Notes under the pieces: generated by a model | Databases searched by the model: none | What the model was told of the DNA's origin: nothing | Seen by the model: only the letters and a program-made list of their open reading frames with translations | Shown: piece after piece, positions 1-64,000 of the stretch | How positions within the stretch are numbered: position 1 is the stretch's first letter | Layout: every line of letters begins with the position of its first letter | Position numbers and translations under genes: made by a program | Assembly: GCF_964340395.1 (NCBI RefSeq) | Contig: NC_135555.1 | Location: 4,445,001-4,509,000 of the forward strand | Direction of reading: 5' to 3' | From: Glandiceps talaboti | Lineage: Eukaryota > Hemichordata > Enteropneusta > Spengelidae | DNA length: 64,000 nucleotides

Positions 1-2135
<2,135 letters not shown>

Positions 2136-6632: not shown

Positions 6633-7642
6633 ATATAATATGTTTCACAATGTTTATCTAAACTATTGACGCCGTATATTACCGTAGTAGCCTGCACATG
6701 TAACAAGTCAATGAAGAGCTAGAAAATCTTAGAATGTAGGTTTCTAAGACCGCGAAAGTCACCTGACAATAGGTTTTGACAAGTGATCGGGATACAAACA
6801 CTGCAATGATGACAGAACCAATGAATTTTGTCGTCTGAAATTGTATTTCATTCGTAATGTTCTCTTTTGTGTATATATATAATATATTTACACGTATTAT
6901 GGTCCAGTAGTACTGTAAACCATACGTGTCAGATACAGTTACCATATCATGTGTTGATATATCTTTTCTGGAAAGCATATTATATATACTCCAACAAAAA
7001 CGAGTTGGTCAGAGGAACAATTATCCCAGTGATGTGTCTATCTGGCTTCAAGGTTCTTCAAGTTCAAGTTCACAACGTAGTTCGCCAAAGGACATCGTCG
7101 CGTTAGATAGCTAAGTCTCTGGGCTACATTAAAGATAAAAAATAAAAATTTACCATGCTGTAGATATTTTCAGCTGTAGAAACAACTTCCTATGATAACG
7201 AGTCAGTTTTTGTTATCTTTCAGATGTGTTTGTAATGATTACTACTAGTACTAGACTAAGTACTTTCAGTAATAAAATTGCCCAGATAAGAACTTATGCT
7301 CGTAATTTCATCGTTTGTGTTGAAAAAAAAACCGTTGATCAGAAACTCAGAACCAAGAACTACACCACAAAACTGATGCATTTAGAAATGTATCTACATT
7401 AATTGACCCATTCAAGTCAGATTCACCTGATCGATGGACATGTGATGTTATATATTATCACCTCCTTTTATGCATGAACCAGTAGGCCTAGTGTCATTCA
7501 GTGTTAGGATGAAGGACAATATCGATTTGGAGATGGGGTATTTAAAGTCTTGTGAATGTATGAATGTAATTTGACTTCACTTTCAATTTCCACATAGCTT
7601 GCAAATACCGCAGAGAGTGGTTGCGACCTGTCCCCTATCAAT

Positions 7643-9050
7643 ATGGACGAATCTCCCGACAGTTGTCCAGACACATCGAGACATGTGGGTGAAGCATGTC
7701 GACATCAATTCACGTATGAACAATTTCAAGATCCCCAACGAGATAGTCTAATCACCGGCAAGTTCCCATCAGGCTTTGCATGGGGCATAGCCACAGCAGC
7801 TTATCAAATAGAAGGTGCCTGGAACAAGGACGGAAAGGGACCGAGTATTTGGGATACTTACTCACATACGGAAGGGAAAGTTTTTGGCAACGAAAATGGG
7901 GATATTGCGTGCGATAGTTATCACAAAGTTGAGGAAGACGTCGTATTGTTGAAAGAGCTTGGAGTGTCTCACTATCGGTTTTCTCTCTCTTGGCCACGTA
8001 TTTTACCGAATGGTAAAAATGATCTCGTCAACCACGATGGTTTGAGTTACTACCACCGATTGATTAATGCTTTAGTTGAAGCTAATATCCAACCTATGGT
8101 AACACTCTATCACTGGGATTTGCCACAGGCCTTGCAAGATATTGGTGGATGGGAGAATGACATGGTGGCCGTATACTTCCAAGACTATGCCGATTTGTGT
8201 TTTAAAGAATTTGGAGACAGAGTAAAACTATGGATTACCTTTAATGAACCGTATGAATTTATATATGAAGGCTTCGAAGGTGGTCACCTTGCCCCAGGAT
8301 TCAAACATCAGGGGACCAGTGTCTACCGTGTAGGGCATAATGTATTGAAGGCCCATGCAAAAGCGTATCATGTCTACGACAAGAAGTACAGAGCTTCACA
8401 GAATGGCATAGTTGGAATCACTTTAGTATCAAACTGGCTCATCCCAGCAACAGATTCCAAAGAAGACAGGGAAGCCGTGAATACATACCTACAGTTTATG
8501 CTTGGATGGTTTGCCCATCCAATTTTCATTAACGGCGATTACCCCGAAATAATGAAAGAACGAGTACTCCACAAAAGCCTTGCACAGGGCCTGACATCTT
8601 CCCGCCTGCCTGCATTTAGCAAGGAGGAGAAGACAATGCTTAAGGGAACGGCAGACTTCTTGGGACTTAACTACTACACTACCAAGATTGTTTATGGAAA
8701 GGAAACGCCTTATACACCAGGTTACTTCGAAGACCAGGATTTGCAGTGTCGATACGATGATGACTGGCCAACGTGTGGAGCTTCATGGTTGAGACCTGTA
8801 CCCTGGGGTTTTAGGAAGCTTATTAACTACGTTAAAGAGAATTATCACAATCCACCGATATATATTACCGAAAATGGGATCTCTGATCCTGTGCTCGATG
8901 GTGATCATGTATTGGAGAGTCCACAAATTGAAGATACATGGAGAGTGAAGTACCTCACAAGCCACATAAATGAACTTCTGAAAGGTAACATTTTATGGGT
9001 TTTACCTCATTCTCACCTACATATTTGAGTTTTTGTTTTGTTTTGTTTTG

Positions 9051-11638: not shown

Positions 11639-11698
11639 CTGTGCTTACACTGATATGTGAACTCAATATACACAGTGCAACCATCGTCCAATTTTAGG

Positions 11699-12301
11699 AT
11701 GGCTTCGTTCTCACCTTATATAGACAGTGCATTCTTCGATAGTGATGATTTAGAGCCGTGCCAGGTATGTGGGGACGAAGGTGAACATGTCAAGAGATGT
11801 TCTCGCTGTAAGAAGGCGTTCTACTGCTCAAAATCGTGCCAGAAAACAGACTGGAAACAACACAAACCAAGTTGCAATCAGCCCACGTCTGCGGAAAATA
11901 CTACCGGGCGTTCAGAGGACGGTGGGCCTTGGGGAATTACGTGGGAGGACTATGCGAAGAAATTCCACGTCCCCAATGCTATTCTCGTTGATAACTTGGA
12001 CTATGTACAGCCGGAGTATGACCCGCCATTTTGTCGCCAAATTCTTGTTGCAAAGATTATAACCAATGCCTTACCAGCCTTTTGTCGTCATAAGATAATT
12101 GTTGCTGATTCGCACGGAAATACGTCACCTGTTATGTTTTACGTTGATTTCGGTATTTCTTATCCATATTTCGCCTGGCAGCAACTCATTGCTGGCAACG
12201 TCATCGCCATTCTCGACCCTCTTCTTCACCGGTTTTTGGACGGACAGGTTGGTATTCGAATTGACGAAGCGTCCGAAGTGAGAGTTTTCAGGAAACGTTA
12301 A
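11699..12301 (+). CDS. MYND-type zinc-finger protein, intronless
   Basis: Predicted 200-residue protein. A canonical MYND finger covers residues 21-59 with ligands C21, C24, C34, C37, C43, C47, H55 and C59, and the typical YCSKSCQ and W-K-Q-H core. MYND fingers usually bind proline-rich peptides in partner proteins. After an acidic/Gly linker there is a conserved-looking C-terminal domain (about residues 85-200) of alternating beta strands ending in a G-x-x-VAI-like strand (NVIAILDP) and DGQVGIRIDE. It resembles small beta-barrel domains found beside MYND or SET modules, but I cannot name it. The ATG at 11699 sits in good context (AGGATGG); the open frame extends 14 codons upstream without another ATG. 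No SET or ankyrin domain is present. Absence of introns suggests possible retroposition, but no poly-A tract or target duplication was seen. Confidence 0.8.
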   Translation: MASFSPYIDSAFFDSDDLEPCQVCGDEGEHVKRCSRCKKAFYCSKSCQKTDWKQHKPSCNQPTSAENTTGRSEDGGPWGITWEDYAKKFHVPNAILVDNLDYVQPEYDPPFCRQILVAKIITNALPAFCRHKIIVADSHGNTSPVMFYVDFGISYPYFAWQQLIAGNVIAILDPLLHRFLDGQVGIRIDEASEVRVFRKR

Positions 12302-15132: not shown

Positions 15133-18100
15133 ATGGCGAGTGTCGTACGACTTGGTTTTCAGCGTGCAGCTTGTTTTAGTAGCAGGTGCCTTATAACAAG
15201 ACAGACGAATTTGCGTTCATTACCACAGCTTGCTAAATACTGTGACGTCGCATTCAAGGCACCTGCAGGTAAGAACTTTTTTTATGATAAATATATTCTC
15301 CCGGATGGTGCCTGTGTGACTATTAAAGTTCCTCGATGGTTTCAACTTTGTGACCATTTGCAACTTTAGTTCAAGCGAAATGTTGCCCGGTGAATGCTAA
15401 CATTATATTCATGTTCTGAGAAGTTAGCGTTGATCTTTCCGATTTTTAATATCAAAATTCAGACATGCGTGTTTCGTTTCGTCTGATTTATATTTTGTGA
15501 AATTGTGTCAGTACGTACATCGTAAGACTCACACACAGCTGGTTCGTTCAAGGTCAGTAAGTTCAGAGGGCGGAGTCACAAGATTATGTCGGTAGCTATT
15601 TTATGTTTTATTTACATTGCAGTACAGTTCCTAATTTGCGCAAATACCACTATCATTATAGTACAGGTGTTCCAAAGTTTTGATAGAACACATAAAAATT
15701 ACATACCTATAGTATTGGATCACAGGAATGGCTTTTCAAAGGGGAAGTAAGTTTCTTACATTGAACCGACCTTGAATTTGCTATAAAATTACTGTAACTA
15801 TGTAACTGATGAAATTGCAAGTTCCGTTTATATCTCAGCTGTTCGCATTTTTTAATTTTATCCATGAAAATGTCTGACTATAGAATGGTACATTATGTAT
15901 TTGGGAATAGGATACAATCACGGATAGTCACATTGTGAGAGTTATAAACTATTCAAATTATCTTGAAGTGTTTTGTATGTCTCTATTTCCCTCCCCCACC
16001 ACCACCCACAATAAAAAAAATCCACTTTCGTAAACATTGGCATGTCAAAAACAGAAAAATATTGCTGCTTCAAGTACCTGTGAAGTAGATGCTTGCATTA
16101 TGTGTGGCATAGTTACCCATTCCTTGACATCTGTAAACCAAATAAATTGAAATGTAGCGTACATTCCCCTGATTGAAATGATAAGAAATGTCCTGTAGTA
16201 AAGTATATATTTGCAGGGCTGAGGCTACAGGAAGTCAGGTTTATGAGTATTAGCATACAATACATAACAAGAAGGAAATGTTAATTATATCATGTCCATA
16301 GACAATGGACAATATGCTTGAATTTTGAATGGATAATTTACATAATAATTACTTTACTGGTTAACAGGTTAATGACATCCACATGACCACTATTTATTTT
16401 GTATACTTGCTTGTATTATCACTATTATGAGCAGTGAGTGTGTACTTAACTTCATGCGAAACAAGACATGACATTCACAAGCCATTAGTGGTCCAAGTGC
16501 AACAAACCCGTGGGCTTGCCTGGCGAAAACAGGTGTCATAAAAGTTGTTTGCATCTCTAAAGCTGTTTGTAGCGTTACTTATAATAGCCTAATAAATTGA
16601 TAACAACTGATATAAGACGGAGATAAGGTTTGCCTCAATTGCAGTCCATGCAGACAGCGGAATAGAGGTTTTACAGCTGTTTACTTGTGTTATGTAAGAG
16701 CCCATCATCACATGTGTAAATATTGGTACTCTTTGATAACAAGTCAACTTGCTTGGCTAATGGCTTGTCCCAGTAATGATGATCCTTATTTCCACATCAA
16801 CATATTTTAATTTTGAACAGTGAACACAGTTATATGATTTTAAAGGTGCTCTTTTGGAGCACTTATGTAACATATATATTTTCCCATGTTTTGTTTTAAG
16901 TTATTTGTTAAAAATAGTTGCCTTCTGCTCATCGGCAGTGTATTCATATTAATTGATAAAAGATTGAACCACCCCTTCCCTCCCCCAGATGACAAAGTAG
17001 AATTTCAAATTCAAATTGAAATTATCATTACTTCTCTCATACTACAACTGAATAAATGTTGAAAACAGAAAATAGTAGTTGTTTTTATTTATTTTTATTT
17101 GCTGTGTTTTCACTAATTATTTATTTTTTACATCATTGCAAAGAAATTAAAATCTATTGATAAGAAACTGAGGAAAATACCCAACAATAATTCTCCAGAA
17201 GTATTTACATGGTATACTAATAGGAGGAGCCTATATCCTAAATCAATTAATCTACATAGATGTTTGCTGCTATCACTGTCCAGTATCTCTAAATTAATTT
17301 ACATGAGAAAAATGTTAATGTATTTTGAAAGATATCAGAGAAAATGGGCTTTCAGTTGATGATAACAAATGAATTTGGGTGTTATATTATTACAGACAGA
17401 AGATACACTGAAAAACATGAATGGGTGAAATTGGATGGTGACATTGGTACTGTAGGAATTACAAGCTATGCACAGGTAGGTTGTGATAAGGTGTTCACTG
17501 TTCAGAATGATTATCAGCATAGAGCAATAATAGTTGGTAAGTAATAGGGGATATAAAATCTGACTTCCCAACAAACCAGGACATTATGTATTAGAAATAT
17601 TAAAATTTAATAAAGGAGGAAAAGTGTGTATTTAGGTATTCAAGTCACAGTTGTATTTTGTTGTAAACTTACAATGCAGCTGGAGTCCATGAGAATGGAC
17701 TGTAATGTGAACTGTGTATATTTAATGTGTAAATACAGCTGTTTGTACTGTGATGACCCTTTTGACCTTAAATGTGACAGCCTACATAACTTCCCATGTT
17801 GCTCAATGAGGAGCATTTAATGTTCAGACACTTACACAAGCATATGTCACTCTTCAAAGTGTCAGTCCTTGTTTAATATTGGTGGAGTTTTCACCAACCC
17901 CAGTATTATGTGTTACAGATAACCACTAAATTTTTTTTTTGTAAATTGTTTTAAAGATGTCAATTTCAATGCCATAATTCTGTCTGTATGGCTATAACCA
18001 CAGTAAAAATGTTGATTCAAGGAAAAAGTCAAATATAATAACAAGTTTTCTGTAACAGAGTGTACAAAGGAGCCCATTCCATAGTGTTTAGTAACCACAA

Positions 18101-19630
18101 AAATGTATTGATCATGTCTGACCAACACGTGCTGACATTTTAGGGGAGCAGTATTTCTGTAATCTGCAGAAATAAAGAGATGGAGTCAGTAGATCAAGAT
18201 ATGTTTGAATAAAGCAAAATTAATGTAATCTCCCAATAGTCAATATTTGTGCACAACTAACCATTGTGATTGGAAAGACTAATATAAACAATCCAATCCA
18301 CATGGATTCTAGGCTACATAAAGAAGTCAAATAGTTAGTGTTCATTTGTCACAAGGGGGTGGGGGGTTAGTGAGAACGGCATTTAGAATTGTAGTGTACT
18401 CGCATATAAGAGTTTAGTCTGTGTGAGTACTAGCACTCAGAAGCTCAAAAGGAGTGAAATTTGAGCATGTACATATACATAGAGCTCTTAATCTTATCTT
18501 ATCTTTTGACTTTTGTGTTCAGACTTCAGAATTTTGATTCACCACTACTGTTTACTTTTGTTGAAGTGTATCTTTTGATATGTTGATTGTCAAAACGTGT
18601 CTGGTATATGTTTTACACATTATCTGGTGTACTGCAACATGTGCACTAGCTAATAATTAGCATGATAATATCAGGTAGGTCTGCAATGACAATAAAAACT
18701 GGACCAAGCCCACATAATAACAATTCATAAAATTCATGAATGAAGTGCTACTGACAGCAATTTCTTGGGACCATCAAATTTGATGTTCTCCTATCTCTTA
18801 CTATGTGGTGACTCATATGAAAACCTAATTTTTATCAACTATGTTGGCCGACAGCAGTAAAACTTGTCTGTCATTATGGGGGCACACTGCATGGATATAG
18901 TAAATGTTCATGTGTATAAATTCACATTATTCTCAAAGTACAATAGAGGTATTGTCATACATGATACAATTTAAATAGTGACAATACTGGCTAACTTTGG
19001 AACAGTGAACTGATGTTATGATATTAGTTATGGTTATAGAATGTTTATATCATATTTCTTTCTATAGGATTCCCTAGGAGAAGTAGTTTATGTTGGCTTA
19101 CCAGATATAGGATCAGCATTTGATGTAGATGGTGAGTATATATGTATATTTTGTGTGAACTTTGGTATAAAGTTCAATGAACAAAATAATAGGGGCACTG
19201 AGTCAAATTTTGATTCTGGACACATTGTTGTTGAACATAGTATTGCATGTCAGACCTGTTCAGCAGAATTGAAATGATTCCAAAATTAATACTCATTCTA
19301 CCAGGGTGGGTGATGGAGTGGGGGTGGTATTTGTACACAATAAAGTACAAGTTGGGAAAAATAGGACTAGACTGCAGTCAATCGTAAGTGGGTAAAGTGT
19401 TGTAATTTTTAGGACAGGGTGGACATTCATTTTGTTGCAATACACTAGTCTCATGACTTTGACTGTGAATTTCAGTCCCAAAGGACGTAGTTTTCATGTA
19501 GTGTTAGTATATTGTAAATTATGGATCAAAATGTGTGTACATATGTGCATGTACACGAATAACCTACTTGTGAATACTTGTCCATGTCTGTGTATGCATA
19601 TCTGTCAGTCTGTCTGTCTATCTGTCTGTA

Positions 19631-19667
<37 letters not shown>

Positions 19668-22600
19668 GACTATTAATTACCTGTGGACTAGAGTAAAATT
19701 TGATCTCAAACCAGACCAGGATGTACATGTATTATTTACTGATATCTGCTGCTTTGTACATTTATCAGATTGATAGAACATTTTTGTGTTTATTCCTCTT
19801 TCAAAGTTGTATTTGTTCTAATGCTAAATTTGGTGCACTTCAACAGATGAATTTGGTACTGTTGAGAGTGTAAAAGCTGCAAGTGAACTTTATTGTCCAG
19901 TGGCAGGTGAAGTCGTAGAAGTCAATTCTGCTTTGGAAGATGAACCAAGTCTTATTAATAATTCCCCATATGATGATGGTAAGTGTGAACCAAGTCTTAG
20001 TAATAATTACCCATATGATGGTGGTAAGTATGAACCAAGTCTTAGTAATAATTATCCATATGATGGTGGTAAGTATGAACCAGGTCTTAGTAATAATTCC
20101 CCATATGATGGTGGTAAGTATGAACCAAGTCTTAGTAATAATTCCCCATATGATGATGATGATAAGTATGAACCAAGTCTTAGTAATAATTCCCCATATG
20201 ATGATGGTAAGTATGAACCAAGTCTTAGTAATAATTACCCATATGATGATGGTAAGTATGAACCAAGTCTTAGTAATAATTCCCCATATGATGATGGTAA
20301 GTATGAACCAAGTCTTAGTAATAATTCCCCATATGATGATGGTAAGTATGAACCAAGTCTTAGTAATAATTCCCCATATGATGATGGTAAGTATGAACCA
20401 AGTCTTAGTAATAATTCCCCATATGATGATGGTAAGTATGAACCAAGTCTTAGTAATAATTACCCATATGATGATGGTAAGTATGAACCAAGTCTTAGTA
20501 ATAATTACCCATATGATGATGGTAAGTGTGAACCAAGTCTTAGTAATAATTATCCATATGATGATGGTAAGTGTGAACCAAGTCTTAGTAATAATTCCCC
20601 ATATGATGATGGTAAGTATGAACCAAGTCTTAGTAATAATTCCCCATATGATGATGGTAAGTATGAACCAAGTCTTAGTAATAATTCCCCATATGATGAT
20701 GGTAAGTGTGAACCAAGTCTTAGTAATAATTCCCCATATGATGATGGTAAGTATGAACCAAGTCTTAGTAATAATTCCCCATATGATGATGATGATAAGT
20801 GTGAACCAAGTCTTAGTAATAATTCCCCATATGATGATGATGATAAGTATGAACCAAGTCTTAGTAATAATTCCCCATATGATGATGGTAAGTGTGAACC
20901 AAGTCTTAGTAATAATTCCCCATATGATGATGGTAAGTATGAACCAAGTCTTAGTAATAATTCCCCATATGATGATGATGATAAGTATGAACCAAGTCTT
21001 AGTAATAATTCCCCATATGATGATGATGATAAGTATGAACCAAGTCTTAGTAATAATTCCCCATATGATGATGATGATAAGTATGAACCAAGTCTTAGTA
21101 ATAATTCCCCATATGATGATGATGATAAGTATGAACCAAGTCTTAGTAATAATTCCCCATATGATGATGATGATAAGTATGAACCAAGTCTTAGTAATAA
21201 TTCCCCATATGATGATGATAAGTATGAACCAAGTCTTAGTAATAATTATCCATATGATGATGATAAGTATGAACCAAGTCTTAGTAATAATTCCCCATAT
21301 GATGATGGTAAGTGTGAACCAAGTCTTAGTAATAATTCCCCATATGATGATGATGATAAGTATGAACCAAGTCTTAGTAATAATTCCCCATATGATGATG
21401 GTAAGTATGAACCAAGTCTTAGTAATAATTCCCCATATGATGATGATAAGTATGAACCAAGTCTTAGTAATAATTATCCATATGATGATGATAAGTATGA
21501 ACCAAGTCTTAGTAATAATTCCCCATATGATGATGATAAGTATGAACCAAGTCTTAGTAATAATTCCCCATATGATGATGGTAAGTATGAACCAAGTCTT
21601 AGTAATAATTATCCATATGATGATGATAAGTATGAACCAAGTCTTAGTAATAATTCCCCATATGATGATGATAAGTATGAACCAAGTCTTAGTAATAATT
21701 CCCCATATGATGATGATGATAAGTATGAACCAAGTCTTAGTAATAATTCCCCATATGATGATGATAAGTATGAACCAAGTCTTAGTAATAATTATCCATA
21801 TGATGATGATGATAAGTATGAACCAAGTCTTAGTAATAATTCCCCATATGATGGTGGTAAGTATGAACCAGGTCTTAGTAATAATTCCCCATATGATGAT
21901 GATAAGTATGAACCAAGTCTTAGTAATAATTCCCCATATGATGATGGTAAGTATGAACCAAGTCTTAGTAATAATTCCCCATATGATGATGATGATAAGT
22001 ATGAACCAAGTCTTAGTAATAATTCCCCATATGATGATGATGATAAGTATGAACCAAGTCTTAGTAATAATTACCCATATGATGATGATGATAAGTATGA
22101 ACCAAGTCTTAGTAATAATTCCCCATATGATGATGGTAAGTGTGAACCAAGTCTTAGTAATAATTATCCATATGATGATGATAAGTATGAACCAAGTCTT
22201 AGTAATAATTCCCCATATGATGATGGTAAGTGTGAACCAAGTCTTAGTAATAATTCCCCATATGATGATGATGATAAGTATGAACCAAGTCTTAGTAATA
22301 ATTCCCCATATGATGATGGTAAGTATGAACCAAGTCTTAGTAATAATTATCCATATGATGATGGTAAGTATGAACCAGGTCTAATTAATAATTCCCCATA
22401 TGATGGTGGTAAGTATGAACCAGGTCTTAGTAATAATTCTCCATATGATGATGGTAAGTATGAACCAAGTCTTAGTAATAATTCCCCATATGATGGTGGT
22501 AAGTATGAACCAGGTCTTATTAATAATTCCCCATATGATGATGGTAAGTGTGAACCAAGTCTTAGTAATAATTCCCCATATGATGATGATGATAAGTATG

Positions 22601-23258
22601 AACCAAGTCTTAGTAATAATTCCCCATATGATGATGGTAAGTATGAACCAAGTCTTAGTAATAATTCCCCATATGATGATGATGATAAGTATGAACCAAG
22701 TCTTAGTAATAATTCCCCATATGATGATGATGATAAGTATGAACCAAGTCTTAGTAATAATTCTCCATATGATGATGGTAAGTATGAACCAGGTCTAATT
22801 AATAATTCCCCATATGATGATGGTAAGTATGAACCAGGTCTTAGTAATAATATTCCATATGTAGTCTTATTAATAATTTTCCATAGTGTGATGGTAATTA
22901 TACAGCCAGCCTGCATACAGTACATACTCTGCAATACTACCGGTATTTGACTTTAAAAAAGTAGAAATGTCGCTCCTGTACTCCCAAAACTTCGCTTTCC
23001 ATAACTCACAAGCTCCCAAAAATATCCAGATTTCATATTGGGAGTGAATCAAAAGGGCTTTTTAAAAAGGCAACAAAACTGTTGTGGCCTACTGTTTTTG
23101 ATAAAATTTACTAGTTACACAGTAATATTATAAAATACACAAACTTCATTTTCTTTTCCACAGGCTGGGTAATGAAACTTAAACTAGATGCACCAGAACA
23201 ATTAAAAGATCTTAAAGATGCTGAAGAATATAAGAAGTTTGTAGAAGATGCTCTGTAA
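15133..23258 (+). CDS. GCSH: Glycine cleavage system H protein, mitochondrial
   Basis: H protein carries the lipoyl aminomethyl arm between the P, T and L proteins of mitochondrial glycine cleavage. Five coding exons: 15133-15268, 17396-17475, 19068-19131, 19847-19978 and 23164-23258, 507 nt for 168 residues. All junctions are GT-AG and keep frame. Residues 1-45 are Arg-rich with no acidic residues before about 37, as in a mitochondrial presequence. The mature part starts [11 protein letters not shown]. The lipoyl lysine is in TVESVKAAS (about K103). The C-terminal half ends [14 protein letters not shown], matching the family's YEDGW. The ATG at 15133 follows AAAAAG. Intron 4 (19979-23163) begins with a 2.9-kb tandem array made of the exon-4 end plus donor, so many alternative in-frame donors exist. 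Canonical length is obtained only with the first donor. AATAAA follows at 23453. Confidence 0.96.
15269..19846. other. GCSH introns 1-3
   Basis: Intron 1 is 15269-17395, intron 2 is 17476-19067 and intron 3 is 19132-19846. They are AT-rich with no nested gene seen. Intron 2 contains CATGGATTCTAGGCTAC at about 18300, matching one end of the inverted-repeat element at 38972. Intron 3 contains a (TGTC)n tract. Confidence 0.7.
19602..19669. repeat. (TGTC)n microsatellite
   Basis: CTGT tetranucleotide array with a few substitutions in GCSH intron 3. Confidence 0.95.
19942..22858 (+). repeat. Minisatellite of about 63 units spanning the GCSH exon-4 donor site
   Basis: Units of 45 or 48 bp, head to tail. 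Each consists of the last 36-37 bases of exon 4 (coding EPSL-NNSPYDD) followed by the donor GTAAGT and TAT/TGT. Unit 1 is the real exon end (19942-19978) with its authentic GTAAGT. Units differ mainly by SPY/YPY codons, TAT/TGT, and an extra or changed GAT triplet. By hand count about 35 units keep GGTAAG and about 28 have GATAAG, which lacks the GT. All units are multiples of three, so one frame stays open for about 1,000 codons, ending at TGA 22948. Copies after about 22800 are decayed. Confidence 0.97.
19979..19984 (+). promoter_or_regulatory. Authentic GCSH exon-4 5' splice site
   Basis: GATGATG|GTAAGT: the first copy of the repeated donor. Its use gives the family-length protein when joined to the acceptor TTTTCCACAG at 23163. 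Confidence 0.85.
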
Positions 23259-42895: not shown

Positions 42896-43267
42896 TAGAA
42901 CATGTATTAAATGTTAAAGTTGTATTTTTGGCATAATATCACGCAAAATGAAAACAAGTAAAGTAATGAATGACTATATTTTCTTGGAAAGACTCCATAG
43001 ATATACAGTGACACCACGGCGGCTTTCGAATTTTTTTTTTTATCATATGTAAATTTATTTTACAACCAAATCGATATATCAGTCGTGGGTCGTGATATTT
43101 GCCTTTATCATGTTTAAAGTTTGGTGGCGCTGTTTACCAGTGTATATAACAGTTAGTTGAACATGACGGTTGTCCTGACGTGACTTGACACCTTGGGTTA
43201 CATCAAGTCTACCAATAGTACCATGTTTTTATGTAGTAGACTACTCAAGTGCATTTTATGAATTATC

Positions 43268-44467
43268 ATGGCATCAATGATAAAGCCCTGGAGAGAAGCA
43301 GCAACGTTGTTCGTCGCCGCTGCTTTAGGAAGGAAAGTTGGAGGTTTTAACTATCGCGTACTCCTACTCAAACGACACAGCAAAGCCACATTCGGAGATA
43401 CCTATGTTATCCCAGGTGGTGTCATCGATAAAGCTGATTTCTCAAATGATTGGCACGATTATTTTACACAGAAGGGTTTGAACAATGCACTTAAGTCATT
43501 GCTCTACACTCGAAGTCACTCTGCGCCAATACTTGCCGATAAAAACCACGATACTAAGATTACCAATGAAGTAGCATTTCGACTCTGTGCTATACGAGAG
43601 ACGTTTGAAGAATCTGGTGTTTTATTGATTACAAATCCAAATGACCAAAATGTTCAAAGTGGTAGGCGGTGTTCAGCTGACACGTCTAAAGTCATGAAAA
43701 TGGGCCAAGAAGAATTGAATGAATGGAGAAAACGCGTGCACAATAATGCCAGTGAGTTCATTGAACTCTGTGATACAATGAACTGTGTACCCAATATTTG
43801 GGCACTGGCAGAGTGGTCAAACTGGTTAACGCCTACCTATCTGTCAAAACGTTATGATACTGCTATGTTCATGTGTTGCCTTAATTCCTTACCGTATGCA
43901 GTTCATGATGACAAAGAATTGGTCGATACACAAGTGAGTGAGTATAGTAAATCAACTTGATATACCTCATGCAGGTGTACAAGTAGTCTAGATGCTAACG
44001 TATGTTGTATCGAATCATCTCATCACCTCGTCTAGCTCAATGAGAAATCATGAACCAAAAGTTGATCATGCAAATGAGTAAACCCCCAAATGTTAGAATG
44101 ATGGAACCAATGTAGTAGCATCCTGAGCTGACAAATATATCATATTTGGACATTATTTAACAGAATTCTGTGACTGATCAACAAAGACATGGTGTTAATG
44201 ATTGTGTGGGTTGCTTGGTTTGAATTTGAAATTTCATCTTAGGACCTCATCGAGCTAGATAGATGTGAAGAGAGATCTTGAGGTTTGATGCCATGGATAG
44301 AAACTAGACTAAAGTAGTCCCAATGGCATTGCAGTGAACTGATTACATCTTGAATAATCAAGGCATTATGATGATATCTATCTCTCAGTCATCTTTGAAA
44401 GGAGCAATTGTAACTTGGGTCGAAACTTATGCATCTTTGGCTGAATCATACACGCTCACACATACAT

Positions 44468-46160: not shown

Positions 46161-47241
46161 TCAATAGTTCAATGTAGGATAGAAAACTTAATTCTTTAAG
46201 TTTGGGGGTAGTAGGGGGGACCATTTAGTTCTCATCCAACAAAAATGATTTTACTTTTATAATGGAATCTGTTTTGTATCCCATAATACAAATTTTCATT
46301 TTAAAAGTTCTCTTGATATCATCTGAAATTTGCATTTTCTCAAAAAAGATATTTTGTATCCATCTTTTCTGTTAAGCAAAATCTTTAGGCATGTAATAAT
46401 GTCTTTATGGTAAACTACATGAAGTAGCAAGGTATACAGGTCATGCTTACCTGCACAGGGGTGAGATCTAAAAGGACGCCATGAGCGTTACATGTTTACA
46501 CAGTAGAAATATGTATTAGATGACCAATAACTATTCATGACTATTAATCTGAAGGTAATAAGCACTTAGGTTCATGAATTTTTATTTTTCATGCAATACA
46601 TATGCATGTCCTCTGACTCCTGTGATGCAAAACTGGATCACCCCTAAGACAATCACAGAACAATGAATGTGAAACAAGATGCAATTTGACATTTCTTGGA
46701 AATCATGAAATCATGAAATGAATCTCCATAACCCAAAGAAGTTTGTTTGTTTTTGTTTTTGTTTTTTAATTACATGTAACAAGTTACAAACACACTATTT
46801 GTCTATGTTGTTTCACATTATTTTGTTTGTTTTTCACGTAGAAAAACATGGTATTAATCAAAAGTTCCTTCCTGTCTGTCTGTCTGTCTGTCTACCCCTC
46901 ACGAAATGTTCTATCAAAAACATAAATATGTTCAAGAAAACGACTACTTATGACCCCCTTCCTATCCTATCTAGAGAAACCTGACAATGTCATACGATAC
47001 GTGTGAAGACGTTTTACGATCAACTTCTCTGAACGTCTATGGACATTGGTCTATATTATTATTAACATACTATGAGGGAAAAGTTTCTTGAATATTGTCG
47101 CGGGAGGGCAGTAGTTGATTCCCATCATTCATTTCGTCGACAAAGATGGCGACTTGCGTAACCAAAACAATTTTGATCTCGATCATACTCTCGATGCGCG
47201 AAATCTGAACATTCCGCGTATCACATTTCGTAACATCAGTC
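46161..47241. other. Spacer between the two NUDT19 copies
   Basis: Holds the dispersed repeat at 46520-46735 and a short (TGTC)n at about 46875-46894. The final 200 bases are less AT-rich and should include the copy 2 promoter. No gene seen. Confidence 0.5.
46520..46735. repeat. Dispersed repeat, copy 1
   Basis: Shares CTGAAGGTAATAAGCACTTA, CATGAAT, ACATATGCATGTC and TCATGAAATGA(A/C)TCTCCA with 57985-58225. About 215 bp, roughly 70-75% similar; no coding capacity. Confidence 0.7.
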
Positions 47242-50200
47242 ATGGCTAGCATTTTGAAACGCTGGCGAGATGCTGCGACGTTGATTGTTGCTGCTAAAAG
47301 CGCAAAACCACTCGACAATTTCGACTACCGGCTTCTCACTTTGCGAAGACACGGTAAAAGTAATTTTATGCCCAATTCATACGTATTCCCGGGTGGTGTC
47401 GTAGATAAAGCTGACTTTGCGAATGAGTGGCTGGATTTATATTCCGAAAATGGTCTTAGATCAGCACTCAGTTCGATTTTGAACATCAGTGGCAACAGAC
47501 CTCCCATGTTCACAACCAAACGGGATTCTAAAGTTCCGAATGAACTTGGGTATCGCATTAGTGCAATCCGGGAAACATTTGAAGAGAGTGGCGTACTGCT
47601 TGTGACAGATCCAAAGAACGTCACAGAACATCGACAAGGTGCATTGAAACTAGCATCACTAGGTCAAATACGACATGGTGAGCTTGAGCAATGGCGGAAC
47701 CGTGTCAGCAGAAATGCGAACGTTTTCATTGAGTTGTGTCGATCCTTGCACTGTGTACCTGATCTATGGTCATTATCTGAGTGGTCTGACTGGTTAACAC
47801 CCTCTGACCTACAACCAAGACGATATGACACTGCATTCTTTATCTGTTGTATAGATGGTGCCCCAACAGCTCTTATAGATGACAAAGAAGTAGTTGATTT
47901 AAAAGTAGGTTTACTGCTGAATAGTTCATAATCATTAGTCAATTTTGGAATCTCTTTTTCATTGTACATAAGTCAAATACTTTACATATCAACAATCTTG
48001 TTAGCTCTGAAATATACGCTCACCGTAAACTGCACGCAACTTTTTTTTCAACATAAACTTTGGAGAGTCTATGGTTCCTATCTTGGTAGAATTAGAATAT
48101 CTATATTGAAAGTGAACATTGAGCACAGTCTACTTCTAGACACAGTCTGAGCATGGATGTATTAAGGGAGCTACATCCATGGATCTATTATAATAATAGA
48201 TCCATGGTCTGAGTAAATTCTGATGCCTTCACTCAACTCAAATGAATGCAATATTTGAAATACAATAAATTAATAGAGTGAGTGAGTGAGTGAGTGAGTG
48301 AGTGAGTGAAGCACCTCAGAGTCCCTGAAGTGACCACATACATGTAGATTTGCATTATGTTATCAAATTTTTCAAATACATATTTAGATAGATGCACAAC
48401 ACATTTAATATTGGTTATGACATTGCGTAGTTCTTTATTTCTGAAAGAAAGTGTACAATGAAACCCTGTTTATCCAAATTGTTGGGTCATCCATAAGTTC
48501 TCTTGCACATCATGCATCCGACCATTGGTCACCTTATATCTATGTACAATGTGCAGCAGTGATCGATGTTGAAAAGTAAAATGAAACGTTCAACTACATG
48601 TATATTGGTACAGTATTTGATACAGTATTACGTAGACAACTTAGGGGTTTGATGTCTTGATTGTTCAGCGTGTTTCAGATATGGGAAATTATGCCCCACC
48701 CACCAAAGCGATTAACTGGAACTGTGCATATCTGAACAAAATCAATGTCCATGGGGAGGTTTGAATAATCAAGAGTTTTAATGTATAACCATTGCTTTGC
48801 ATATAAGGAGAACTCATTCACACATATATTCATTTTGTATTTGATACTAGATGACATGCTAACAAGCTCTTTGCTGCCTGACTCATTTTCTCTCTCTTCT
48901 ATGTCTCTCTGCTGTTCAGTGGGTAACACCAACAGAAGCTTTAGATGATCACAAGAAAGAGAAACTATTTCTTGGCCCACCACAAGTATATGAAATTGCC
49001 CGACTCCTGAACTTCCAGAAGTTAGACACCCTTTGTAGGTTTAGTGTAGAAAGACAAAAGGCAGGTCTGGAATTGTGGTTACCAGTCAGATATAACACAA
49101 CAAATGGCATTCTCTCAGTTTTACCAGGTAAATGATCATAATTTTTATCTATAGTATTAGGTTTCTTGTATATCTTGGACCTAGAACAGATGCTGTTGTG
49201 TCTCCTTTCCCATGTAAAATCATATTAACATGTTAGGTTTCTGGCATATCATTTTCAACAGTGTTACCTGTATATATTTTACACTGACTGTAGTGACTTG
49301 TAAGCCAGTTGGGCTGAATAATTCTTTGTTTTGACTTGTTTTTCATACTATTATGTTATGTGATTACATGTCACTCTAATAAACATACTACTACTACTAG
49401 TACTACATGGACACAGAACAAATGGCATTCTCTCCATTTTACCAAGTACATGCATGTGATATTATCAAAAAAATATTTATATGTTGGGTGTCTGCAATAC
49501 CATTATGGACATAGAAACATTCTTGAGATGTTGCAGATTTCTGTAAGAAAATAGGCTAAACCTGTCTATCTTTGATAAACCACAGAGCTGACTGCTATCT
49601 TTTTATCTGTGACTCATCTTTTCAAATTATTTTCATCATTCAAATTACAACAGTGTCTTGTCAGCAGTAAAACAAAAAAACAGCATTGATGTTCTGATTA
49701 GATTCATCCAATTGAAGGAAGTACAGATTCAAAACTGTTAAGTTCAAAAGACCAGAGGGTTGGTCGGGAATGGGATAGGGATGGCAACAGTCCTGTTCTC
49801 TTTTAGTGCCACTGTATTCTCTTTATCTGAAATAGAATTTTACTTTGTAGGCGTGTCATAGAAATTAGAATCATGTTTTCTTGGTTGACATGATTTCTGC
49901 TCCCTACACTACATAGGCACTACTGTAGGCACATTAATTGAATCAACCTTCTTGTTCTATTTCGACCCTCTCACATGATGTAAAATGCTGTTACAGAGCT
50001 TTCAGTAGAGTGTGTTCCTAAAAGAAACCTTGTGTGTTTAACATCTGACCATGTATTATTGATCTACAACAGGTGACAGCATGTATCCTGTAAATCCAGA
50101 CTTCACTGGTGACAAGGACATTGTGGATCTCAACCAAACATTGTATGAAAACAGACAGTCATCCAAACACCTACACAGGACTGAATTCCGAGGAGTTCAT

Positions 50201-51590: not shown

Positions 51591-51815
<225 letters not shown>

Positions 51816-52599
51816 AGGAAAACGTTGGCAGTGGATGCCAGTCATATAAGAATACAAGAGGCAGTTAACAAGATACATCAACAATTTTATAAGACCCTGA
51901 ATATGGGACTGGTGAAGATAAATAGTTGTATAGTTTTTACCACAATCTGATATAGGAATAATCAAGATGATCATTCCCAAAACAACAAAAAACAAAAACA
52001 AACATACAATATACAAAATATGAAGAATTCTCAGTCGTATTGCTTCATCAGATGCTACTTAAAGTGTTGTTTGGAAGCATCTTGTGGACTGAAGTGAGGG
52101 CCAAAATAGTTGCAATGGGTTTTGTGAACTAAATTTGTATTGAATGACTGCCTTGACTTGGTACATTGTTGTATTAACCCTTTCATTCCTAGAGACGACA
52201 TTGGAATAAATAGAAACTTGATTGTAAGAACATTTTCTAAAATTTAAGAATATTACTTCATTGGGAAGTAATATTTCTTGAATTCTGGTCTAAAATAAAG
52301 TTGATCTTTTTCCAAAAATTACAGAGAAACAAGAATTTTTGTTCAAAAATTTTGACGGGAAAGTTTCTAGTCCTGAAAGGGTTAAAGCAGAAAGCAGACA
52401 AGTTAAGTCTGTAAACCAAGCAATTTTATTATACGAATGTGACATTGAAAGGAAACACCTTGCAAATACTTTTTAGCTGACCAACGGACACAGAGATTCA
52501 TGGGGGGGGGGGGTTTATATACAGAAATGACCCATCTCCATCTGTGCCCCTCATCTATAGAATGCTTTCCCATCGCAGCTCCTAGCTACTCCTTCATTA

Positions 52600-62608: not shown

Positions 62609-64000
62609 CAACTTAAACTCAAAAATTGCATAACCAATTGCCTTATAATTTGGTGGTGACATTACTTTTGGTGTCAAGTTGGGAAATTGTTCAAATGAAA
62701 ATGATCACATCAAAGATGTGTGTTTTGGGTAAAAAAATGTTATTCTTGGTAAAAAAACTTAAATTCCAAAACTACTGGGCAGATTGGGCTGAAATTAGGT
62801 GGGAACATTCTTAGGGGTGTTTTGATGAAGAATTTGATGATCTCATCAGTGATATGCAAATTAGGTCTAAACATTTGTCTTTTTGTCAAAATTCTTTAAT
62901 TCCAAAATTAATGAGCAGATTGGGCTGAAACTTGGTGGGAATGTTCTTAGGTGTGTTTATATGAAGAATTGTTCATGACATGATCCCATCAGTGATATGC
63001 AAATAGGGCTAAAATATGTCTTTTTGGTCAAAAATCTATCATTCCAAAGAACTACGGAGCAGGTTGGGTTGAAATGTAATGGGGGTGCATTTGGGTAGTG
63101 TAGAGGAAGGTGTATTCAAAACATGATAATCCCATCAGCAATATGCAAATTAGGTCTATAAAATCTCAATTTTGGTCATAAACCCTTGAAAACTACATGA
63201 TGAATGGGGCTGAATCTTGGTGGGAATGTTTCTGGATGCCTTATTCTGCAAGTATTCAAAACATTTTGACACAACTGGCCCTAGTAACCATAACTACACC
63301 CTTAGTAACAGTGAAATGATGCATATTACAAAGATAACAACAGGGATTGGTAGGTAAGTGAATAAAGATTGTATGCAAATATGCCTAGCAACAAGCTCAC
63401 ACCCATAGCAACAGCCAAATACAGTTGTGCTACGGTGCCATTGCCACTATTTTTTGTGTATTAACTAATGTGTATTCAGATTCTGATTGATAACATTGCA
63501 AATTTGGATCCTTTTTCCATACTGTAGTGTTTCTAAAACCGAAATTTACTTCAAAGTTTCACTGTAAAATATCTCCTTTGAGTGTAATTATCCTTTGTAA
63601 GGTATTTTTAGTACTTTTCATGAAACAATATAGCCTCCTTTTGCCATATTTGATTTGATTTTGTATGTTTCAGCCTTTCAGCTTCCAGACCCAGTTGCAT
63701 TTTGGCCATTGAATTTCTTGTTTGAATTTGATGATATGAGTGGAAATGATAACGATGGTACTTCCTGGAGTGTATCACTATCATATGATGTTGATCACTA
63801 TCCAGATGGTGTGTACAGATTTCTTCCTGACGTTGCATCCTACATTGAGTTTCCAAACAATGGAGCATTTGATATCAATGATAAATCCATGACTTTGTTG
63901 ATGAAAGTGTACCCTAGTGGATCAAGTGGACCTCTGTTCTCTTTTGGACAGGATGGTGTTGGACTTCAACTCTCTCAGGAATCATCGAATGATCTTACTG
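54201..64000 (+). CDS. Secreted or membrane protein with laminin-G-like domain, partial (3' end off window)
   Basis: Nine coding exons: 54201-54402, 55168-55424, 56994-57229, 58470-58695, 59551-59743, 60424-60521, 61283-61465, 61993-62167 and 63674-64000 (open at the edge). All junctions are GT-AG with matching phases (1,0,2,0,1,0,0,1), giving 632 residues so far. The N-terminus has a hydrophobic signal-like stretch ([14 protein letters not shown]). Residues about 25-525 are beta-rich with several N-glycosylation sequons and scattered Cys, and no family I can name. A Ser/Thr/Pro-rich linker (exon 8) precedes a LamG/concanavalin-like domain in exon 9: [40 protein letters not shown] and GPLFSFGQ. 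Such domains bind glycans or partners in extracellular matrix and adhesion proteins. The start ATG follows a frame with no earlier ATG. Confidence 0.8.
54918..55014. repeat. (AATC)n / (AACC)n microsatellite
   Basis: Tetranucleotide array in intron 1 of the LamG gene. Confidence 0.95.
55456..55550. repeat. (TA)n microsatellite
   Basis: About 47 TA units starting roughly 30 bases after the exon-2 donor of the LamG gene. Confidence 0.97.
55551..56993. other. Intron 2 of the LamG gene, remaining part
   Basis: Includes GC-rich patches at about 56160-56215 and a (GATC)/(GATT) array at 56427-56525. No nested gene seen. Confidence 0.5.
57357..57446. repeat. Inverted repeat in LamG-gene intron 3, first
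   Basis: GCTAGCCCTCGGATGTTC at the left pairs with GAACATCCAAGGTCTAGC at the right, with ACACAGCCGAAC inside. Confidence 0.65.
57803..57880. repeat. Inverted repeat in LamG-gene intron 3, second
   Basis: GCTAGACTGTTCGGGC pairs with GCCCGAACGTCTAGC. Inner TTCGTTCGCTTATAG and ATAGCATCGAAAGAAAG. The AGACNTTCGG-CTTTCTTTCGAT phrase recalls the fold-back element at 6462-6632. Confidence 0.65.
57985..58225. repeat. Dispersed repeat, copy 2
   Basis: Counterpart of 46520-46735, in intron 3 of the LamG gene. Confidence 0.7.
58765..58876. repeat. Short dispersed MITE-like repeat, copy 2
   Basis: Counterpart of 24045-24148: TGTAAGGTACGTACG start, CACACATCATTGGTCAACC and GCCGATGAGGGCAGAG inside, TATCTTATAG end. 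Located 70 bases after the exon-4 donor of the LamG gene. Confidence 0.7.
62410..62606. repeat. (CTGT)n and (GT)n microsatellites
   Basis: Adjacent tetranucleotide and dinucleotide arrays in the last visible intron of the LamG gene. Confidence 0.97.
62620..63250. repeat. Diverged tandem repeat, about 4-5 units of about 130-140 bp
   Basis: Units share TTCCAAAA, GAGCAGATTGGGCTGAAA, TGGTGGGAATGTTCTTAGG and CATCAGTGATATGCAAAT, with growing divergence toward 63250. In intron 8 of the LamG gene. Confidence 0.85.

Follow-up and report, generated by a model that had tools for sequence, protein, structure and literature searches.

A minisatellite copied from the exon 4–intron 4 junction of GCSH in Glandiceps talaboti

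The GCSH gene and its surroundings

The window, a stretch of 64 kb of Glandiceps talaboti DNA, contains on its forward strand a complete GCSH gene of five exons, which once joined read through 168 codons with no stop inside and are separated by introns with GT and AG ends throughout (Table 1). Introns 1, 2 and 3 are 2,127, 1,592 and 715 nt long, while intron 4 spans 3,185 nt from its first donor. The product matches the Pfam GCV_H family (PF01597, E 4.5e-46) over residues 47-166, so that the mature protein is covered. It is identical over its full length to the NCBI protein ‘glycine cleavage system H protein-like [Glandiceps talaboti]’ (P0001), a model that may rest on homology, not on reads; the next-best match among the best 120 of 7,979 comes from the acorn worm Ptychodera flava, with 67% identity. 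Based on an alignment of 14 H-proteins, chosen from the named proteins among these best 120 of 7,979 matches, residues E100-A105 of the ESVKAASE region are invariant in 14 of 14 proteins and S106 and E107 are nearly so. Within this region, K103 is presumably the lipoylated residue. The AlphaFold model of the 168-aa protein has a mean pLDDT of 80.9, and its ten-residue blocks from residue 51 on reach 89-98. Among other annotated H-proteins, those of Trichinella (P0121 and P0127) are listed with 553 and 593 residues, far above the usual length.

Several other features surround the gene. Upstream of GCSH, at 11654-12301 (+), an open frame encodes a MYND zinc finger (PF01753). At 693-2135 (-) and 7598-9028 (+), two klotho- or lactase-like open frames are arranged head to head with about 5 kb between them; a match to glycosyl hydrolase family 1 (PF00232) was obtained for the second, and the first is similar by eye. 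The adjacent open frames at 43262-43960 and 47209-47931 (+) resemble tandem duplicates of a Nudix-type gene, the former with a weak PF00293 match below the Pfam cut-off and the latter similar by eye. A nearly pure GA repeat of 225 bp (51593-51817) lies within a 179-codon open frame and is probably non-coding, and a tandem array at 62701-63182, with a unit of 136-143 bp in two overlapping TRF rows of 75-77% matches, could be a member of a dispersed repeat family. The window has no Rfam match at gathering scores and no tRNA.

Table 1. Features of the GCSH locus. Positions are those of the window; a slash marks the end of an exon.
Feature	Position	Strand	Remarks
GCSH exon 1	15133..15268	+	start codon, mitochondrial-type leader; donor CAG/GTAAGA; open spliced frame
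GCSH exon 2	17396..17475	+	acceptor TTACAG, donor CAG/GTAGGT
GCSH exon 3	19068..19131	+	acceptor CTATAG, donor ATG/GTGAGT
GCSH exon 4	19847..19978	+	132 nt; encodes ESVKAASE; last 37 nt (19942-19978) form the exonic part of unit 0
Minisatellite	19942..22858	+	64 units in GAACCA phase, of which 63 measure 45 or 48 bp and the last is degenerate; junctions: 35 GGTAAG, 28 GATAAG
First donor, GTAAGT	19979..19984	+	ATG/GTAAGT; fits the annotated 168-aa protein
Last intact array donor	22823..22828	+	would leave a 341-nt intron
Decayed edge unit	22863..22901	+	indels; weakened donor GTAATT; local alignment score 46 against 29 for the best of 2,000 shuffles
Intron 4 acceptor, AG	23162..23163	+	no other AG of the intron follows a strong pyrimidine tract
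GCSH exon 5	23164..23258	+	remainder of the Gly codon, then WVMKLKL... up to the stop

Anatomy and drift of the array

Most of intron 4 is taken up by a minisatellite whose unit is a copied exon-intron junction, namely the terminal 37 nt of exon 4 followed by the initial 8 nt of intron 4, running head to tail from 19942 with unit-unit joints that read GATGGTAAGTATGAACC. TRF reports a single array at 19940-22851 with a period of 45, 63.5 copies, 94% matches and a score of 4904, the highest of the 41 rows in the 64-kb window. When the units are delimited by the motif GAACCA[AG]GTCT, with the end of exon 4 itself as the first, there are 64 units of 24 distinct sequences. The measured lengths are 45 bp in 45 units and 48 bp in 18, all multiples of three; the degenerate 64th unit was assigned 45 bp by script, not by measurement. 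An earlier note, made from the sequence alone, had described the end of exon 4 and its donor as repeated about 63 times in units of 45 or 48 bp, with about 35 copies reading GGTAAG and about 28 GATAAG and with the donors all in the same phase. These claims were borne out: there are 63 full units and a degenerate 64th, the 63 junctions divide into exactly 35 and 28, and 35 of 35 intact donors share the phase of the donor at 19979.

Beyond the decayed edge unit, no further decayed unit scored above shuffles in the rest of intron 4 (22903-23163), in intron 3 or in upstream exon 4, and a search of both strands of the 64-kb window with at most one mismatch to a 13-base core gave no copy outside the array. 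No clear higher-order repeat appears in the order of the units (identity by lag 0.02-0.19). Intact and lost donors are mildly clustered (25 runs against a shuffled mean of 32.1, p 0.044) and the donor is missing in 18 of 18 units of 48 bp, both of which fit what local duplication would give. The folding of the array RNA is unremarkable in the one stretch folded (19847-20520, 674 nt), with a z of 0.36 and with 12 of 20 shuffles folding at least as well.

In the way they vary, the units look like neutral DNA. Two of the nine variant codons in the 63 units are synonymous (22%), and random single changes would be expected to give 18.5-25.9%, along with 2-4% stops. This codon-variant test detected no selection on the array peptide, at low power because few distinct variants exist. 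An open frame was rejected as evidence for coding, since over the array two further frames, + frame 1 and - frame 0, also run through 813 codons with no stop; the caution, already voiced in the note, that openness alone shows no selection was well placed. The multiple-of-three unit length is likewise weak evidence, because only two lengths occur. An ATT (Ile) codon of exon 4 has become AGT (Ser) in 60 of the 63 downstream units, at a position where H-proteins have Ile or Val in 14 of 14 aligned proteins, which indicates that the exon kept the residue while the array drifted. The decay of the unit at the 3' edge, with its indels and weakened donor, likewise fits a neutral minisatellite.

Donor choice and the H-protein product

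The 35 intact donors are nearly identical. The 9-mer ATG/GTAAGT is found in 29 of them and the 20 nt of exon plus 6 nt of intron around the first donor in 22, the first donor included in both counts. On a simple donor matrix, the 29 donors with this 9-mer score 10.88 and the other six 9.92, compared with 11.32 for exon 1 and 10.19 for exon 3 of the same gene (exon 2 left out). Downstream of them, the single acceptor that had been placed at 23163 is indeed the one strong acceptor, with 89% pyrimidines in the preceding 18 nt against 67% for the next best, at two other AGs; the position needs correction only in that the AG closes intron 4 and exon 5 starts one base later.

As its units show, the array is a minisatellite copied from the junction between exon 4 and intron 4 in an intact GCSH gene, likely by tandem duplication. 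We consider it probable that it is spliced out almost wholly from the first donor, which would make the 168-aa H-protein the usual product. A single tandem duplication could have founded the array. Exon definition would then favour the first donor because it closes a normal exon of 132 nt, whereas with a later donor the exon would grow to as much as about 3 kb; the normal size of this exon and the fit of the annotated protein are the reasons why we judge use of the first donor most likely. If splicing now and then slipped to a later donor, an acidic linker would be added with no frameshift or early stop. Because both unit lengths, 45 and 48 bp, are divisible by three, such slips would stay in frame and the array would be tolerated and free to expand, with no strong selection against its growth. 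Growth may have proceeded by unequal exchange, and the same exchange may have spread the loss of the donor (GATAAG) between units. One point against the first donor is that the later donors are mostly no weaker. In competition studies with two sites, the intron-proximal donor is said to win often, a preference that would predict use of the last donor and an intron of only 341 nt.

Use of any later donor would place an insert between G138 and W139, the boundary just before WVMK at which the insertion point had been correctly located. In the AlphaFold model this site is a coil between a helix (129-132) and a strand (141-145), and neither residue varies among the 14 aligned H-proteins. The form made from the last intact donor would have 1,116 aa and no internal stop. 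The earlier note had allowed for 1 to about 62 added repeat copies; the open, stop-free frame holds, but with 35 intact junctions only 34 longer forms are possible, adding 15 to 948 residues, and the longest insert would bring in 226 acidic residues and 62 lysines. Protein searches were made in three length ranges, and many of the matches carry no species name. A longer GCSH isoform ought to have most of the query words in common, to come out among the top ranks and to approach 100% identity. At about 92-294 aa, with a capped set of candidates scored, no longer form was seen among the best 120 of 7,979 matches, where apart from the 168-aa form itself no match exceeds 67% identity; at 241-768 aa there was none among 17 matches from 314 candidates, with a maximum of 66% identity; and at 569-1,810 aa none of the capped set of 7,990 candidates scored matched the query, which is repetitive, at E 0.001. 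The name of the NCBI protein has no ‘isoform X’ tag, and by NCBI custom an absent tag means one annotated form.

Transcript reads would be of unequal use along the array. The first donor can be told apart from the other 34 with an exon-side overhang of 31 nt, and an overhang of up to 75 nt identifies 17 of the 35 donors; the remaining 18 require more than 75 nt, and four of the 35 more than 140 nt. Ordinary RNA-seq is therefore good for the first donor and poor for the rest, and rare use of later donors would easily be missed.

A choice among the 35 donors, which would yield H-proteins carrying 15 to 948 additional acidic residues at the G138-W139 boundary, strikes us as unlikely. All 35 donors are in phase, they score like the donors of exons 1 and 3 on the simple matrix, the modelled coil at the insertion point could bear a linker, and human IFI6 reportedly splices from two downstream repeat units (PMC4526556). 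Against such a choice, only the 168-aa form was seen for the species across the protein length ranges searched, so the ladder of H-protein lengths proposed in the note found no support; the units have also drifted away from the H-protein sequence, the insert would part two residues that are invariant in the aligned proteins, and the longest insert would be burdened with the acidic and lysine residues counted above. It is a rather doubtful proposition that as many as 35 H-protein lengths exist in which the number of acidic repeats varies beside the last strand of the lipoyl domain, with the spread set by the length of the array and by the units that keep the donor G. If the last donor were the main one, the array would be mostly exonic and the usual product would be the 1,116-aa form. 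The frame is open all through and the intron left over would be compact, but the NCBI protein is the 168-aa form and none of the capped set of 7,990 candidates scored at 569-1,810 aa is a relative. An exon of about 3 kb ahead of an internal donor is unusual in animal genes, which counts further against this outcome, and we regard it as extremely improbable.

The intact sites could instead act as decoys, with U1 snRNP held along the array so that removal of intron 4 is slowed or tuned, for example through intron retention or shielding from early cleavage. The 34 further intact donor-like sites in one intron and the absence of AATAAA and ATTAAA between 19979 and 23163 would suit such a role; the loss of the G of GT at 28 of 63 sites is unexpected if selection kept binding, and we think the role very unlikely. 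As to the array itself, it is scarcely credible that assembly has inflated its copy number. Tandem arrays are error-prone in assembly, but a repeated assembly error would not give 24 distinct unit sequences in mixed order, and the decayed unit at the edge also argues against it; the number of units could be off by some.

Precedents and significance

The minisatellite of human IFI6 (also 6-16 or G1P3; Turri, Cuin and Porter 1995), which reportedly begins at the end of an exon and has a 12-bp unit, again a multiple of three, is the closest precedent. Two downstream units of this minisatellite are used as donors, which gives three mRNAs (PMC4526556). The two arrays are alike in that each begins at the end of an exon and has units that bear donor sites, intact at 35 of 63 junctions in GCSH, and in that the GCSH unit of 45 or 48 bp is likewise frame-keeping. 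The likeness is one of arrangement only, as gene, lineage and unit all differ, and the GCSH array has 35 donors over 2.9 kb with 37 nt of real coding sequence per unit. Furthermore, IFI6 uses more than one unit donor in its transcripts, whereas for GCSH only the 168-aa form was seen, in proteins alone.

Repeats at exon-intron boundaries are known more widely. In human genes of segmental duplications, one study describes internal tandem repeats at such boundaries that are mostly in frame where coding, can alter splicing and vary between paralogues, with a mean of four 30-bp units; in the morpheus family one repeat reaches as many as 39 copies, there inside exons (PMC2812944). The GCSH minisatellite shares the position at the boundary with the repeats described there, but it has 64 units in one gene and carries the donor itself. 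Another parallel is the gain of introns by tandem duplication, in which AGGT in the classical form supplies both splice sites of the new intron; the same text mentions fission-yeast genes in which an exonic AGGT segment of 24 bp is present several times (PMC4974935). There too a coding segment with a splice signal is copied in tandem, but compared with the process described in that text the GCSH units give donors only and lengthen an existing intron; no new acceptor arises, the strong acceptor (23162) lying outside the array. The repeats of an earthworm metallothionein (PMC12783039) and a prawn lectin (PMC7536079) were set aside as precedents, since the available parts of these papers describe no donor-bearing units. 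A literature search by title found nothing on this GCSH locus, and IFI6 and the exon-intron-boundary repeats were the precedents that it gave. The GCSH locus is therefore an extreme case of a type of arrangement that is already known.

To our knowledge, the choice among equal donors has mostly been studied in built constructs with two or few sites. The GCSH locus sets 35 donors, 29 of them with the same 9-mer and near-equal surroundings, before one acceptor, with 28 single-base knock-outs interspersed among them. The donor that is used here would separate exon definition, which points to the first, from nearness to the acceptor, which points to the last, and the locus is a useful test because the intron-proximal expectation runs contrary to our reading. 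The array also illustrates the way in which a coding junction can grow into a long minisatellite without loss of the gene's reading frame.
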